Positions 18,966-26,276 of a stretch of 64,000 bases of DNA are shown here, piece by piece. The position numbers and the translations under genes are program-made. The DNA lies in contig NZ_WHOL01000108.1 in assembly GCF_009745975.1 (NCBI RefSeq), positions 1-64,000 on the forward strand. The letters are read 5' to 3'. How positions within the stretch are numbered: position 1 is the stretch's first letter; every line of letters begins with the position of its first letter. The notes beneath the pieces were generated by a model. That model was given only the letters and a program-made list of their open reading frames with translations. It made no database searches and was not told the origin of the DNA. Source of the stretch: Actinokineospora pegani (lineage in GTDB: Bacteria; Actinomycetota; Actinomycetes; Mycobacteriales; Pseudonocardiaceae).

Positions 18966-19697
18966 CTAGGCGACGGCGGCGAGGGCGTCCTGGAGGGTGA
19001 AGTTGCCGTTGTAGAGGGCTTTTCCGATGATCGCCGAGTCGATGCCCTCGGGCGCCAGGGCGGCCAGGGCGTGGATGTCGGCGAGGCTGGAGATGCCGCC
19101 GGAGGCGACGATGGCGGACTCCGTGCGGCAGGCGAAGTCGCGCAGGAGGGTGATGTTGGGGCCGGTGAGGGTGCCGTCCTTGCTGACGTCGGTCACGACG
19201 TAGCGGGTGCAGCCGTCGGCGTCGAGGCGGGTGAGGGTGTCCCAGGGGTCGCCCGCGTCGGTGGTCCAGCCCCGGGTGGCGAGGCGGTAGGAGCCCGGTT
19301 GGCCCTTGACGGCGAGGTCGATGGCCACTCGGTCGCCGTGCTGGGTGAGGACCTTGCGGCACCACTCGGGGTCCTCGAGGGCGGCGGTGCCGATGTTGAC
19401 CCGGGCGGCGCCGGTGGCCAGGGCGGCGGCGAGGGTGTCGTCGTCGCGGATGCCGCCCGCGAGTTCGACCTTGACGTCCAGGGTGCCCGCGATCTCGGCG
19501 GTGATGGCGCGGTTGTCGCCGGTGCCGAAGGCGGCGTCGAGGTCGACCACGTGCACCCACTCGGCCCCGGCGGCCTGCCAGGCCAGGGCGGCCTCGAGCG
19601 GGGTGCCGTAGACCGTCTCGGTCCCGGCCTCCCCCTGGTGCAGGCGGACGGCCTTGCCGTCGGAGATGTCCACGGCCGGGAGCAGCTGGAAAGTCAC
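18966..19697 (-). CDS. priA: Bifunctional isomerase PriA (HisA/TrpF)
   Basis: 243-aa barrel isomerising ProFAR in histidine synthesis. In actinobacteria without trpF it also isomerises phosphoribosyl-anthranilate for tryptophan. Landmarks are [21 protein letters not shown] (catalytic Asp), [43 protein letters not shown] (second Asp) and IASGGI. The GTG start at 19697 gives the usual N-terminus. Two tandem stop codons close it. hisH lies 20 bp upstream. Dual activity is inferred from family and the absence of trpF in the trp block. Confidence 0.95.
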
Positions 19698-19717
19698 CCG
19701 GTCAGCCTATCGAGCCC

Positions 19718-20350
19718 TCAGCTCCAGGCGCGCAGCCAGTTCTCCAGCAGCGTCGCGCCCGCGTCGCCGGACTTCTCCGGGTGGAACTGGGTGGCCGACA
19801 GCGGGCCGTTCTCCGCGGCGGCGACGAACTCCCCGCCGTGGTCGGCCCAGGTGACCAGCGGGACCGGCATCGGCGGCTCCGGGCGCAGGTCCCAGGTGCG
19901 GGCGGCGTAGGAGTGCACGAAGTAGAACCGCGTGTCGGCCGCCATGCCCTCGAACAGCACCGACTTCTCCGGGGTGCGCACGGTGTTCCACCCCATGTGC
20001 GGCACGACCTGGGCCTCGAGCCGGTCGACGGTGCCCGGCCACTGCCCGCAGCCCCCGGTCTCCACGCCGTGCTCGATGCCGCGCTCGAAGAGCACCTGCA
20101 TGCCGACGCAGATCCCCAGCACCGGGCGGCCCCCGGCGAGCCTGCGGCCGATGATCCGGTCGCCGCGCACCTCCAGCAGCCCGGCCATGCACGCCGCGTA
20201 GGCGCCGACCCCCGGCACCACCAGGGCGTCGCACTCCACCGCCGCGGTGAAGTCGGAGGTGACCTCGACCTCGGCCCCCACCCGCCGCAGGGCCCGCTCG
20301 GCCGAGCGCAGGTTGCCTGATCCATAGTCCAAAACGACGACGCGTGCCAC
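19718..20350 (-). CDS. hisH: Imidazole glycerol phosphate synthase glutaminase subunit
   Basis: Class I glutamine amidotransferase supplying ammonia to HisF. 210 aa. It starts [11 protein letters not shown] with the oxyanion strand VVPGVGAY. The nucleophile is Cys81 in [11 protein letters not shown], and the His/Glu pair lies in [10 protein letters not shown]. The GTG at 20350 is the only sensible start. It is upstream of priA on the same strand, so the two are probably co-transcribed. Confidence 0.97.
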
Positions 20351-20497
20351 CCCCGCAGCCTAGACCTCGTCCGCGAAACCCCCACCAAACCCTCCGTTGC
20401 CCGATCGTTACCGACAATGGTTTGGCGCAGGCTCCTCACTGGGTACTCGGCAGAAGCTGTCGGGGCTGGTTTTTGTGGTGAATGGTGTGGAGGACAC

Positions 20498-20773
20498 GTG
20501 CGCACTTCCCTGACCGGGGTTCTGGCAGGCGGACCGGCTCGTTGGACGATCGCGGGCACCCTCGCGGTCGCCGCGGCCGTCAACAGCTACCTCGCGCTGA
20601 GCGAGAGCGTGCTCTGGCCGGTCCCCCTCGCGGTGCTGTGGATCGTGCTCGCCGCGGGCGTCCTGACCGTCCGCGCGGACAACACGCCCAAGGACGGCGA
20701 AGATCTCCCCACCACGGCGCATGAAGCCCTCAGCCTGACCAACAACACCCCCCGCGCACTGCACAGCGTCTGA
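20498..20773 (+). CDS. Small two-helix membrane protein
   Basis: 91 aa, unknown function. The GTG at 20498 is preferred because GTGGAGGACAC precedes it. Two hydrophobic spans are visible, WTIAGTLAVAAAVNSYLAL and PVPLAVLWIVLAAGVLTV, joined by a very short loop (SESVLW), so it is a hairpin in the membrane. A polar, Thr/Asn-rich tail of about 30 residues follows. It is divergent from hisH and ends 14 bp before a strong hairpin. Confidence 0.7.
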   Translation: MRTSLTGVLAGGPARWTIAGTLAVAAAVNSYLALSESVLWPVPLAVLWIVLAAGVLTVRADNTPKDGEDLPTTAHEALSLTNNTPRALHSV

Positions 20774-20786
20774 CCCCCGAGAACAC

Positions 20787-20825
20787 CGAGGCGGGAGCGG
20801 CACCCCCAGCGCCGCTCCCGCCTCG
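20787..20825. terminator. Bidirectional hairpin terminator
   Basis: A perfect 15-bp stem (20787-20801 with 20811-20825, CGAGGCGGGAGCGGC and its complement) has a nine-base loop. It lies between the convergent ends of the small membrane protein (20773) and the transketolase C-half (20834). Confidence 0.85.
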
Positions 20826-20833
20826 TCGGCGTC

Positions 20834-21739
20834 TCAGGCCGGCAGGAAGCCGATGAGCGCGCGCCGGATGCCGCCCGGGTCGAGGCCGTGCACGGCGTCG
20901 TGCTCGGTGGGCAGCCCGTAGGCGTGGACCTCCGTGTCGCGCAGGACTCCGAGGCCCAGTTGGCGGTGCGGGACGTCGACGAGGGCGGTGGCGACCTCGG
21001 CGGAGGAGGAGCCGCGCAGGTAGGGCTCGACCATGACGACGTTGGGCGCCGCGGCGTCCACGGCGACGCGCAGGCCCGCGTGGTCGAAGGGGCGCACGGT
21101 CGCGGTGTAGAGCACGGTCACGTCGAGCCCCTCGGTGGCGGCGAGGACCTGGTCGAGGACGGGGCCGACGGCGACCACGACGCCCAGGCCGCCGCGCCGG
21201 AGCGGGACGAGGCCCTGGCCGACGGGCCTCGGGGTGGCGTTCTCCCGCGTCGACAGCCGCAGGTAGACCGGGTCGTCGCCCGCCAGCGCGGCGGTGAGCA
21301 GCGGTTCGACCTCGGCGGCGTGGCCGGGGACGTGGATGGTGTAGCCGGGCAGCGTGTCGATGAGCGGGACGTCGCCCGGCGACTGGTGGGTGCGGCCCAT
21401 GGAGGGGTCGTCGTAGGAGGCTCCGATGCTGACCAGGACCGGGTTGACGCCCTGGTGGGTGAAGTCGAGCTTGATCTGCTCGAAGGCGCGCTCGACGAGG
21501 AAGGGCACGTAGGTGTGCACGACCATGCGCTTGCCGGTCAGCGTCAGGCCCGCGGCGACGCCGACCATCGCCTGTTCCCGGATGCCCACGTCGACCACGC
21601 GGTCGGGGAAGCGGTCCGCGGCGGCGGCGAAGCGGTCGGCGGAGATGACGGCGGTGACGAGTCCGACGCGCTCGTCCTGCTCGAAGGCGGCGTTGAGGGT
21701 GTGGGCGAAGGCGTCGCGCATGCCCGTGGTGGTGGTCAT
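20834..21739 (-). CDS. Transketolase-like protein, C-terminal half
   Basis: 301 aa carrying the pyrimidine-binding and C-terminal domains of a split transketolase. The catalytic Glu region is DVGIREQAMVGVAAGLTLTG, and the cofactor-loop SIGASYDDPSMGRTHQSPGD follows. The C-terminal domain contains VVAVGPVLDQVL, TVLYTATVRPFD and MVEPYLRG. The family also includes DXS-like and apulose/apiose transketolase halves, so the sugar substrate is uncertain. The ATG at 21739 lies 2 bp after the N-half stop, so the two are translated together and should form a heterotetramer. Confidence 0.92.
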   Translation of the reverse strand: MTTTTGMRDAFAHTLNAAFEQDERVGLVTAVISADRFAAAADRFPDRVVDVGIREQAMVGVAAGLTLTGKRMVVHTYVPFLVERAFEQIKLDFTHQGVNPVLVSIGASYDDPSMGRTHQSPGDVPLIDTLPGYTIHVPGHAAEVEPLLTAALAGDDPVYLRLSTRENATPRPVGQGLVPLRRGGLGVVVAVGPVLDQVLAATEGLDVTVLYTATVRPFDHAGLRVAVDAAAPNVVMVEPYLRGSSSAEVATALVDVPHRQLGLGVLRDTEVHAYGLPTEHDAVHGLDPGGIRRALIGFLPA

Positions 21740-21741
21740 GG

Positions 21742-22419
21742 TCAGGCCTCCCGGATCTGGGCGATGACGGCCAGCGGCGCGTCGGGGTGGTCAGCGGTGA
21801 CGGCGCGCTCGATGGCGTCGTGGTCGCGGCCGTCGACGGTGGCGGTGGCCCAGCCCTCGACGGCGAAGCGCGCGGCGATGCCGCCGGGCCAGCCGTGCAT
21901 GGCGCTGTCGTTGTCGACCACCACGGTGGTCAGGTTGGCCAGCCCGCGCCTGCCCGCCACGGCGATGGCCTCGTGGTTGCTGCCCTCGTCGAGCTCGCCG
22001 TCGCCGACCAGGACCACGACCCGCTGCCCCGCGGTGAGCCCGATGGCCTGGCCGACGGCGATGGGCAGGCCGTGGCCGAGCGAGCCGGACCCGATCTCGA
22101 CGCCGGGGACCAGCGTGCGGTCGGGGTGGTAGCCGAGGGTGGAGTCGAAGGTGAGCCAGGTGTCCAAGGTGGACGGATCGATGAAGCCCTTCGCGGCCAG
22201 CACGGCGTAGTAGGCCATCGGCCCGTGGCCCTTGGAGAGCAGGAACCGGTCGCGGCCGGGGTCGTCGGGGGCGGCCGGGTCGACGCGCAGGACCCGGTCG
22301 TAGAGCACCCACAGCACGTCGAGGGTGGAGGTGGCCGCTTGCTCGTGCTTCTCGTCGCCGGCCATCCTGGCGATCAGGCCGGGCAGGTCGCGGTAGCCGG
22401 ACGCGGTGTCTGTTCGCAT
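21742..22419 (-). CDS. Transketolase-like protein, N-terminal (TPP-binding) half
   Basis: 225 aa. The thiamine diphosphate domain is intact: LSKGHGPMAYYAVLA, GSLGHGLPIAVGQA, the metal-binding VGDGELDEGSNHEA and the closing VDNDSAMHGW. It acts with the adjacent C-half on ketose/aldose phosphates. The ATG at 22419 lies about 7 bp downstream of a -10 element, so the message may be leaderless. Dyads for the divergent SoxR lie exactly in the promoter spacer, implying redox-responsive expression. The annotated start is chosen over an upstream TTG that would overlap the promoter. Confidence 0.92.
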   Translation of the reverse strand: MRTDTASGYRDLPGLIARMAGDEKHEQAATSTLDVLWVLYDRVLRVDPAAPDDPGRDRFLLSKGHGPMAYYAVLAAKGFIDPSTLDTWLTFDSTLGYHPDRTLVPGVEIGSGSLGHGLPIAVGQAIGLTAGQRVVVLVGDGELDEGSNHEAIAVAGRRGLANLTTVVVDNDSAMHGWPGGIAARFAVEGWATATVDGRDHDAIERAVTADHPDAPLAVIAQIREA

Positions 22420-22425
22420 GACCAC

Positions 22426-22456
22426 AGCCTGCAACCTCGACCAAGGTCGAGGTCAA
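22426..22456 (-). promoter_or_regulatory. SoxR-type promoter of the split transketolase
   Basis: On the minus strand a -35 TTGACC (22456-22451) and a -10 CAGGCT (22431-22426) are 19 bp apart, the long spacer typical of MerR-class promoters. A perfect 18-bp dyad (22435-22452, CCTCGACCAAGGTCGAGG on plus) lies between them. It keeps the CCTC...GAGG ends of known SoxR boxes. A transcript start about 7 bp after the -10 falls at the ATG. Confidence 0.8.
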
Positions 22457-22459
22457 GCA

Positions 22460-22490
22460 CTTCGAGCAACGTCGAGGTCGCGTGTAGAGT
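22460..22490 (+). promoter_or_regulatory. Second SoxR-like dyad and -10 of soxR
   Basis: An imperfect copy of the dyad, CTTCGAGCAACGTCGAGG (22460-22477), lies 25 bp centre to centre from the first. A -10-like TAGAGT (22485-22490) ends 7 bp before the soxR GTG, so this message may also be leaderless. Autoregulation by SoxR is the likely reading. Confidence 0.6.
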
Positions 22491-22497
22491 CGTCGGG

Positions 22498-22962
22498 GTG
22501 TCGAAGCTCCCCGACTCGTTGACCATCGGCGAGGTCGCCGACCGCAGCGGCGTCCCGCACACCGCCCTGCGCTTCTACGAGGAGCGCGGGCTCATCCACT
22601 CCGTGCGCACCGCGGGCAACCAGCGCCGCTACCCCCGCGCGGTGCTGCGCAGGCTGGCGTTCGTCCGCACGGCCCAACGCGTCGGGCTGTCCCTGGAGGA
22701 GATCCACGACGCCCTGGCCACCCTCCCCGACCAGCGCACACCCACCAAGTCCGACTGGCACCGCCTCTCCAAGACCTGGCGCGGCGAGCTCAACGCCCGC
22801 ATCGACTCCCTGCAACGCCTCCGGGACAACCTCGAGAGCTGCATCGGCTGTGGCTGCCTGTCCCTGAAGTCCTGCCACCTCATCAACACCGACGACGTGC
22901 TGGCCAAGTACGGCCCGGGCGCCCCCCGCCTGCGCGCGGGCACCGAGGGCGGCATCACATGA
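22498..22962 (+). CDS. soxR: Redox-sensitive regulator SoxR, MerR family
   Basis: 154 aa. An N-terminal MerR winged helix (LTIGEVADRSGVPHTALRFYEERGLI, then NQRRYPR) is followed by a dimer coiled-coil (about 75-112) and the [2Fe-2S] motif with Cys115, Cys118, Cys120 and Cys126 (CIGCGC, LSLKSC), the exact C-x2-C-x-C-x5-C pattern of SoxR. The cluster is oxidised by redox-cycling compounds, switching on a long-spacer promoter. GTG 22498 is used. It is divergent from the split transketolase across two dyads. Actinobacterial SoxR usually controls redox enzymes, so a transketolase target is unusual. Confidence 0.95.
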   Translation: MSKLPDSLTIGEVADRSGVPHTALRFYEERGLIHSVRTAGNQRRYPRAVLRRLAFVRTAQRVGLSLEEIHDALATLPDQRTPTKSDWHRLSKTWRGELNARIDSLQRLRDNLESCIGCGCLSLKSCHLINTDDVLAKYGPGAPRLRAGTEGGIT

Positions 22963-23001
22963 CCCGACCGCCACCTGATCGGCGCGACGGGGATCGGGCT
23001 T

Positions 23002-23041
23002 GGAGCCGTCGTCAGGACGAGACGTACCAGGCGACGGCTCC
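23002..23041. terminator. Inverted repeat at the end of the hisDCB transcript
   Basis: GGAGCCGTCG (23002-23011) and CGACGGCTCC (23032-23041) form a perfect 10-bp stem around 20 bases that include the stop codon of the 53-aa gene. It lies between convergent soxR and the his operon end. The large loop makes termination efficiency uncertain. Confidence 0.45.
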
Positions 23042-23173
23042 GCCCGCGGCCAGGAAGGCCAGGACGCCGAGGAGGGCGGCCATGGGCTTGGAGTTCTCGT
23101 AGGTGGACTTGACCCCGCCGACGAGGATGCCGGACAGCGCGATCAGGAGGACGACGATGACTTCCTTCGGCAC
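23012..23173 (-). CDS. Small two-helix membrane protein downstream of hisB
   Basis: 53 aa: GTG start 2 bp after the hisB stop. The sequence begins VPKEVIVVLLIALSGILVGG, then a polar loop KSTYENSKP, then MAALLGVLAFLAAGG and AVAWYVSS. Two transmembrane helices are predicted from hydrophobicity. It is too short for most gene finders, but the spacing, codon third-position GC and operon position support it. Function unknown. Confidence 0.7.
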   Translation of the reverse strand: MPKEVIVVLLIALSGILVGGVKSTYENSKPMAALLGVLAFLAAGGAVAWYVSS

Positions 23174-23175
23174 GG

Positions 23176-26276
<3,101 letters not shown>

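Follow-up and report, generated by a model that had tools for sequence, protein, structure and literature searches.

A SoxR-type promoter before a Rif15-like split transketolase of Actinokineospora pegani, and its possible part in defence against quinone-like redox cyclers

The window analysed here, a 64-kb stretch of Actinokineospora pegani DNA taken as a whole, contains a plus-strand soxR gene transcribed divergently from two minus-strand genes, tktN and tktC, which encode the halves of a split transketolase. The start codons of tktN and soxR are separated by a 79-nt gap containing two dyads. The features are as follows.

20834–21739, minus strand: tktC (Rif15b-type), 301 aa, pyrimidine-binding and C-terminal half; PF02779
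21742–22419, minus strand: tktN (Rif15a-type), 225 aa, ThDP-binding half; PF00456
22426–22431, minus strand: tktN −10, CAGGCT, 6 nt before the ATG at 22419
22435–22452, no strand assigned: dyad 1, candidate SoxR operator in the tktN promoter, CCTCGACCAAGGTCGAGG; loose box pattern and promoter matrix
22451–22456, minus strand: tktN −35, TTGACC, from reading the sequence; TTGAC[CT] is common in relatives
22460–22477, no strand assigned: dyad 2, probable SoxR operator before soxR, CTTCGAGCAACGTCGAGG; loose box pattern
22485–22490, plus strand: probable soxR −10, TAGAGT, 7 nt before the GTG at 22498; placed by eye
22498–22962, plus strand: soxR, 154 aa, GTG start, MerR-family redox sensor with CX2CXCX5C; TIGR01950

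In a profile search, the product of the plus-strand gene scores 207 bits against TIGR01950, above the SoxR-specific cut-off of 116.9, and its top match among solved structures in the PDB is E. coli SoxR (2zhg). Residues C115, C118, C120 and C126 align with that structure, confirming the complete [2Fe-2S] motif claimed in a sequence-only reading of this DNA; judged by its sequence, the gene encodes a true SoxR. The top PDB match of TktN is 6yak, the N component of the split-chain transketolase from Carboxydothermus. For TktC, the DXS structure 8a29 ranks first and the C chain of the Carboxydothermus split transketolase (6yaj) second, and its match to PF02780 falls marginally below the cut-off. 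Only 2 nt lie between the end of tktN and the start of tktC, and the transketolase active site spans both chains. By eye, the soxR-tkt unit is embedded in histidine biosynthesis genes (window positions 18966–26200), with hisD, hisC and hisB on one side and hisH and hisA on the other; his-like genes also adjoin two further loci (L070 and L073).

The arms of dyad 1 read CCTCGACC-AA-GGTCGAGG (22435–22452) and those of dyad 2 CTTCGAGC-AA-CGTCGAGG (22460–22477). Dyad 1 had been described as a perfect 18-bp dyad; its 8-nt arms are indeed perfect, but the central AA is asymmetric, so that strictly 16 of the 18 positions obey the symmetry. The second dyad lies ahead of soxR as proposed, at 25 bp centre to centre, and the proposed TTGACC-19-CAGGCT arrangement surrounds dyad 1 on the minus strand (22456–22451, a 19-nt spacer, 22431–22426). 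A consensus promoter scan returned no match, since its spacers are confined to 16–18 nt. Both messages had also been thought leaderless. For tktN this is probable and conserved in relatives, since in 100 of the 104 related loci with a box of the loose pattern (CYTCNAN6TNGARG) the first start codon at least 3 nt past the −10 is 6–7 nt away; for soxR it is plausible, given a GTG 7 nt past TAGAGT.

The loose pattern occurs twice in the 64-kb window, both times in the soxR-tktN gap; shuffles predict 0.12 matches for the window and reach two in 1 of 100 cases. Throughout the 6.44-Mb genome it occurs 12 times, compared with once for the reversed-pattern control, and this genome-wide frequency gives an expectation of ~0.00015 for the 79-nt gap. 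At three of the 10 loose-pattern sites elsewhere in the same genome, TTGAC[CT]-19 lies by eye upstream of a gene, namely those for an FMN reductase (L204), an ABC transporter (L206) and an erythromycin-esterase-like protein (L210), the first two being target types known from S. coelicolor SoxR. The notion of a SoxR with a single target was dropped in light of these promoters: the “sole adjacent target” of the sequence-only reading is right as regards adjacency, but the transketolase is probably not the only target. At C48:5342 on the minus strand (L203), the exact TTGACC-19-CAGGCT recurs by eye without a settled gene; a gene resembling acyl-CoA carboxylase is nearby. A loose-box site at an MFS gene (L201) has a weaker −35, three others (L202, L205 and L208) fall within called ORFs, and L209 gives no clear picture. 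The second genomic site of a strict pattern (C107:361298) was set aside as probably due to chance, as it lies next to repeat-like sequence and transposase-like ORFs (by eye).

A search of 100 relatives found the enzyme at 37 places in 36 genomes at no less than 62% identity, with the next matches at 49% or below. The promoter was then scored in 145 related loci, a non-random sample made of the best-matching loci of four sets (30 + 28 + 7 + 80), of which the named-genome set is the best 80 of 427 relatives; the same genome may occur in more than one set (L077 and L182 have the same letters at every tree column), and other cuts of already counted places (L002, L064, L066–L070, L075 and L076) were excluded before counting. 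The loose box is present upstream of tktN in 104 of the 145 loci, accompanied by a −35 of TTGAC[CT] in 102 and a −10 ending in T in 103 of these. Scored with a 31-nt weight matrix, leave-one-out and with a threshold of 26, the loci separate cleanly: 137 score at least 26, eight score −14 or less and none falls between, while only 3 of 3,041,960 background positions reach the threshold. The window promoter itself scores 44.1 (leave-one-out). Three of the eight loci without a site are Rif15-type (L029, L062 and L077) and five are not (L063, L081, L096, L112 and L131). A soxR was matched in 26 of the 30 loci of the first set, 7 of 28 in the class-level set and 27 of 80 in the named set, where it is divergent and near; most loci taken from genome searches span ~1.5 kb per side, and a soxR farther away would escape. 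In the DNA examined, 81 of the 145 loci have no soxR match within 3 kb, and because 57 of these 81 carry the loose box, a neighbouring soxR is not enough to account for the promoter. What is conserved is a dyad within a 19–20 bp spacer, that is, a SoxR-type promoter. The sequence-only reading had proposed SoxR control of the split transketolase through a 19-bp-spacer promoter, and a search of related genomes for the soxR-tkt pair and its dyad as a check; the conservation in 137 of 145 loci bears this out, and the tktN-tktC promoter is almost certainly under SoxR control, so far as its architecture can tell. Divergent soxR-tkt loci with a CTTCAAG-type box were also seen on four Chloroflexota MAG contigs (L082, L109, L137 and L152), which reflect either transfer between phyla or mis-binning.

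The pairing of dyads, also part of the original claim, recurs: 10 of 71 loci with soxR 20–160 nt away contain a second dyad (at least 9 of 10 scored positions). In most of these the soxR-side box lies ~20 nt ahead of the soxR start codon; dyad 2 of the window stands at this distance, as does the single common box of the many loci whose gap is close to 54 nt. Since the soxR-side box matches the position of the single box, the longer gap of the window seems to hold a separate operator for each gene.

The association extends beyond physical linkage. In a class-level survey of 394 genomes, the enzyme (E ≤ 1e-60) was detected in 53 and SoxR in 224. Taking the two surveys as covering the same 394 genomes, SoxR is present in 52 of the 53 enzyme-bearing genomes versus 172 of the 341 others (Fisher p 4e-13, kinship ignored), with G134 the sole enzyme-bearing genome lacking a SoxR match. 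Gene neighbourhoods are less uniform: no co-oriented gene cluster recurs in at least 8 of the 80 named loci within 4 kb (the clusters being without HMM annotation), and seven downstream opposite-strand clusters recur in 8 to 20 of the 80. In two loci of the same order (L061 and L065), soxR-tkt adjoins a zinc-type dehydrogenase resembling quinone oxidoreductase, as identified by Pfam in L065 and by eye in L061.

The kind of transketolase encoded here can be approached through individual residues, using E. coli TktA for numbering and reference and 142 non-Rif15 loci (L029 left out) as the sample. The positions that we take to be the ThDP/Mg and catalytic residues of TktA are kept, as in a canonical transketolase: H66, D155, N185 and H473 in all 142 loci, and H100 and E411 in 141; H26 is kept in 139. 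The sugar-phosphate contacts of a canonical transketolase are not. H461, D469 and R520, which we assume to make these contacts in TktA (R520 to the phosphate, with D469 presumably shaping acceptor choice in the E. coli enzyme), are each found in none of the 142 loci, and S385 is found in 7; three Rif15-type loci have the same contact losses. Among 11 outgroup transketolases, R520 is present in 9, S385 in 7, H461 in 3 and D469 in none. By this comparison R520 is the clearest difference from the outgroup and S385 the second, while D469 makes no difference; loss of D469 and H461 alone is not decisive, because most outgroup enzymes are also without them. The A. pegani genome encodes a canonical transketolase elsewhere, with all 13 checked residues intact. 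Fingerprint positions common to the window family (L029 being counted with it here) and the Rif15-type loci are missing or almost missing from the outgroup, and this fingerprint together with the two-subunit split marks the window enzyme as Rif15-type. Subfamily membership and contact loss, like SoxR identity, promoter architecture and conservation, and co-occurrence, are sequence-based, and on that footing we consider it quite probable that the acceptor lies outside the pentose-phosphate pathway.

The nearest characterised relative of the window enzyme is Rif15. According to the accessible text of PMC6002545, Rif15 requires both of its subunits, ThDP and Mg, takes its C2 unit from F6P or, best, Xu5P, and converts the ketone of the quinone rifamycin S into the ester of rifamycin L. 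The same text gives a slow kcat of about 0.022 per min and reasons that the rifamycin L ester may hydrolyse back. That Rif15 uses ketose-phosphate donors despite the missing contacts means that contact loss does not name the acceptor. In our comparisons Rif15-type loci stand in for the assayed A. mediterranei Rif15; like the window pair, these encode the enzyme as two small chains, arranged in the same order, with the shared fingerprint and the missing contacts. One of them, L077 from Amycolatopsis vancoresmycina NRRL B-24208, is ~66% identical to the window in TktN and ~60% in TktC. Its pair adjoins P450 and thioesterase genes, followed by rpoB-like sequence (the latter by eye), and this is the kanglemycin strain (PMC6175910, accessible text); from strain and context, the L077 pair would be the kng Rif15. 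Surroundings were examined for four other Rif15-type loci. L062 is flanked by FAD-monooxygenase, aroQ, LuxR-type and methyltransferase genes, and L215, L216 and L217 (scored for promoter as L171, L180 and L172) lie in a rifamycin-type tailoring context by motif and reading, of which one P450 and the methyltransferase of L217 are Pfam-based. Unlike the window, none of the 13 scored Rif15-type loci (L171–L183) has the SoxR promoter, and none has soxR within the 2.8–3.7 kb examined, whereas the window pair adjoins soxR among his genes.

Family members without a SoxR site were also seen in other settings. In Streptomyces cylindrosporus (L081, 7694–11610), one lies in a cytokinin-type cluster, beside an isopentenyl transferase gene and two ORF pieces of a gene resembling cytokinin dehydrogenase. 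L063 and L112 (Streptantibioticus silvisoli) form a separate 100* pair near YcaO proteins; L112 also adjoins JmjC-like and prolyl-oligopeptidase-like genes, perhaps a peptide natural-product cluster.

It is tempting to ask which regulatory state came first. The 15 Rif15-type rows, 14 of them distinct over the tree columns, group in a single 100* clade next to SoxR-type enzymes of Pseudonocardiaceae, and the window row falls outside this clade and inside a 41-row clade holding both. Free trees and midpoint rooting nest Rif15 inside the SoxR-type enzymes. Proof of this by outgroup rooting failed: with Rif15 placed outermost, one AU test gave no rejection (p 0.49), nor did a second (p 0.62), in which this arrangement had a likelihood 7.1 log units above that of the free tree. 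Any order of events is therefore argued from distribution. In a family-level survey, the enzyme is found in 238 of 390 genomes (32 of 46 genera) and a Rif15-type copy in 13. At least two enzyme-family members are present in 11 of the 13 genomes of L171–L183, and second copies (L211–L214, and L061 of G073 beside the Rif15-type L062) have a SoxR site and a divergent soxR in five of five cases. Recruitment of Rif15 from SoxR-type enzymes is not proved, although the distribution favours it.

These observations suggest a redox-sensing defence unit in which a SoxR-induced enzyme of Rif15 type caps quinone-like redox cyclers, a reading that we prefer but hold at slightly under an even chance. A redox cycler would oxidise SoxR, and oxidised SoxR would activate transcription of tktN-tktC by compensating for the excess length of the 19-bp promoter spacer, while probably tuning its own gene through dyad 2. 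The leaderless message would yield TktN and TktC, the two subunits of a thiamine-diphosphate transketolase belonging to the Rif15 subfamily, which may transfer a ketol (C2) unit from one of the cell's ketose phosphates to a quinone-type carbonyl; the product would be a hydroquinone ester no longer able to redox-cycle. We infer binding and induction in vivo, formation of the complex, the quinone acceptor and the resulting protection. Kinship to Rif15, the lost contacts and the class of compounds that induce SoxR point to a quinone or similar aromatic carbonyl as the acceptor, at about even probability.

A different acceptor would change the physiology. The enzyme could instead capture small aldehydes or dicarbonyls arising from redox stress by C2 carboligation, as transketolases are generally able to join C2 units to aldehydes and the window family has lost D469; this is unlikely, as SoxR senses redox-active compounds rather than aldehydes and the Rif15 precedent is a quinone. 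Somewhat less probable still is a biosynthetic role, in which the enzyme tailors a redox-active metabolite of the strain's own that induces it through SoxR. The rifamycin-type tailoring regions around L062, L077, L215, L216 and L217 and the YcaO and isopentenyl transferase genes beside other copies speak for such a role, yet those five copies are without the SoxR site, the 80 named loci have no recurring co-oriented neighbour, and the window copy sits among his genes (by eye). The third possibility, given a marginally lower chance again, is the one raised in the sequence-only reading, namely an extra pentose-phosphate transketolase induced by SoxR that steers sugar phosphates or supplies NADPH under redox stress. 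Its domains and ThDP machinery are those of a transketolase, D469 and H461 are missing from most outgroup enzymes as well, and redox stress is generally expected to raise NADPH demand. However, the contrast in R520 (0/142 versus 9/11), the intact canonical enzyme in the same genome, the want of a recurring co-oriented cluster within 4 kb of the 80 named loci and a nearest characterised relative that works on a quinone leave that role unsupported. That the dyads are fortuitous and the transketolase escapes SoxR control is very hard to credit, given that 137 of 145 loci reach a matrix score attained at 3 of 3.04 million background positions, and that two rare sites fall within 79 nt.

If the quinone-capping reading is correct, the soxR-tkt pair may be a quinone-neutralising route of soil bacteria that has gone unrecognised, and it would bring a new type of enzyme into the SoxR response. 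It would also put the unusual ketone-to-ester chemistry of Rif15, which to our knowledge is known only from rifamycin biosynthesis, in a physiological setting and hint at the origin of a rifamycin tailoring step. The prediction that follows is that the operon responds to certain quinones and that its product modifies these same compounds. A broader proposal, which we advance with more hesitation and regard as somewhat doubtful, is that a SoxR-induced quinone-capping C2 enzyme is widespread in Actinomycetes and occurs in some other phyla, with Rif15 as its recruit freed from SoxR.

It is worth considering these features beside known SoxR systems. In E. coli soxR-soxS, soxR is divergent from its target and the operator lies inside a promoter with a 19-bp spacer. 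The window shares both the divergence and the operator in a 19-bp spacer, and differs in that the target is an enzyme rather than a second regulator and that there are two operators. The S. coelicolor SoxR regulon, whose genes respond to a redox-active antibiotic, is described in the accessible text of PMC4146615 as including a quinone oxidoreductase, a monooxygenase, a flavoprotein reductase and an ABC transporter; it has an operator of the same kind as the window, and the six members reported there include no transketolase. Our literature search, made mostly without subscription papers, found nothing joining Rif15 and SoxR, and its only direct SoxR-transketolase link was a table footnote in PMC4146615, as far as that source is accessible. 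The footnote lists SAV_1623, a “putative transketolase” of S. avermitilis with a predicted SoxR site. This candidate relative of tktN-tktC differs from the window in being a footnote prediction with no link there to Rif15 or to a split enzyme; like the window pair, it is an actinomycete transketolase predicted to be a target of SoxR.
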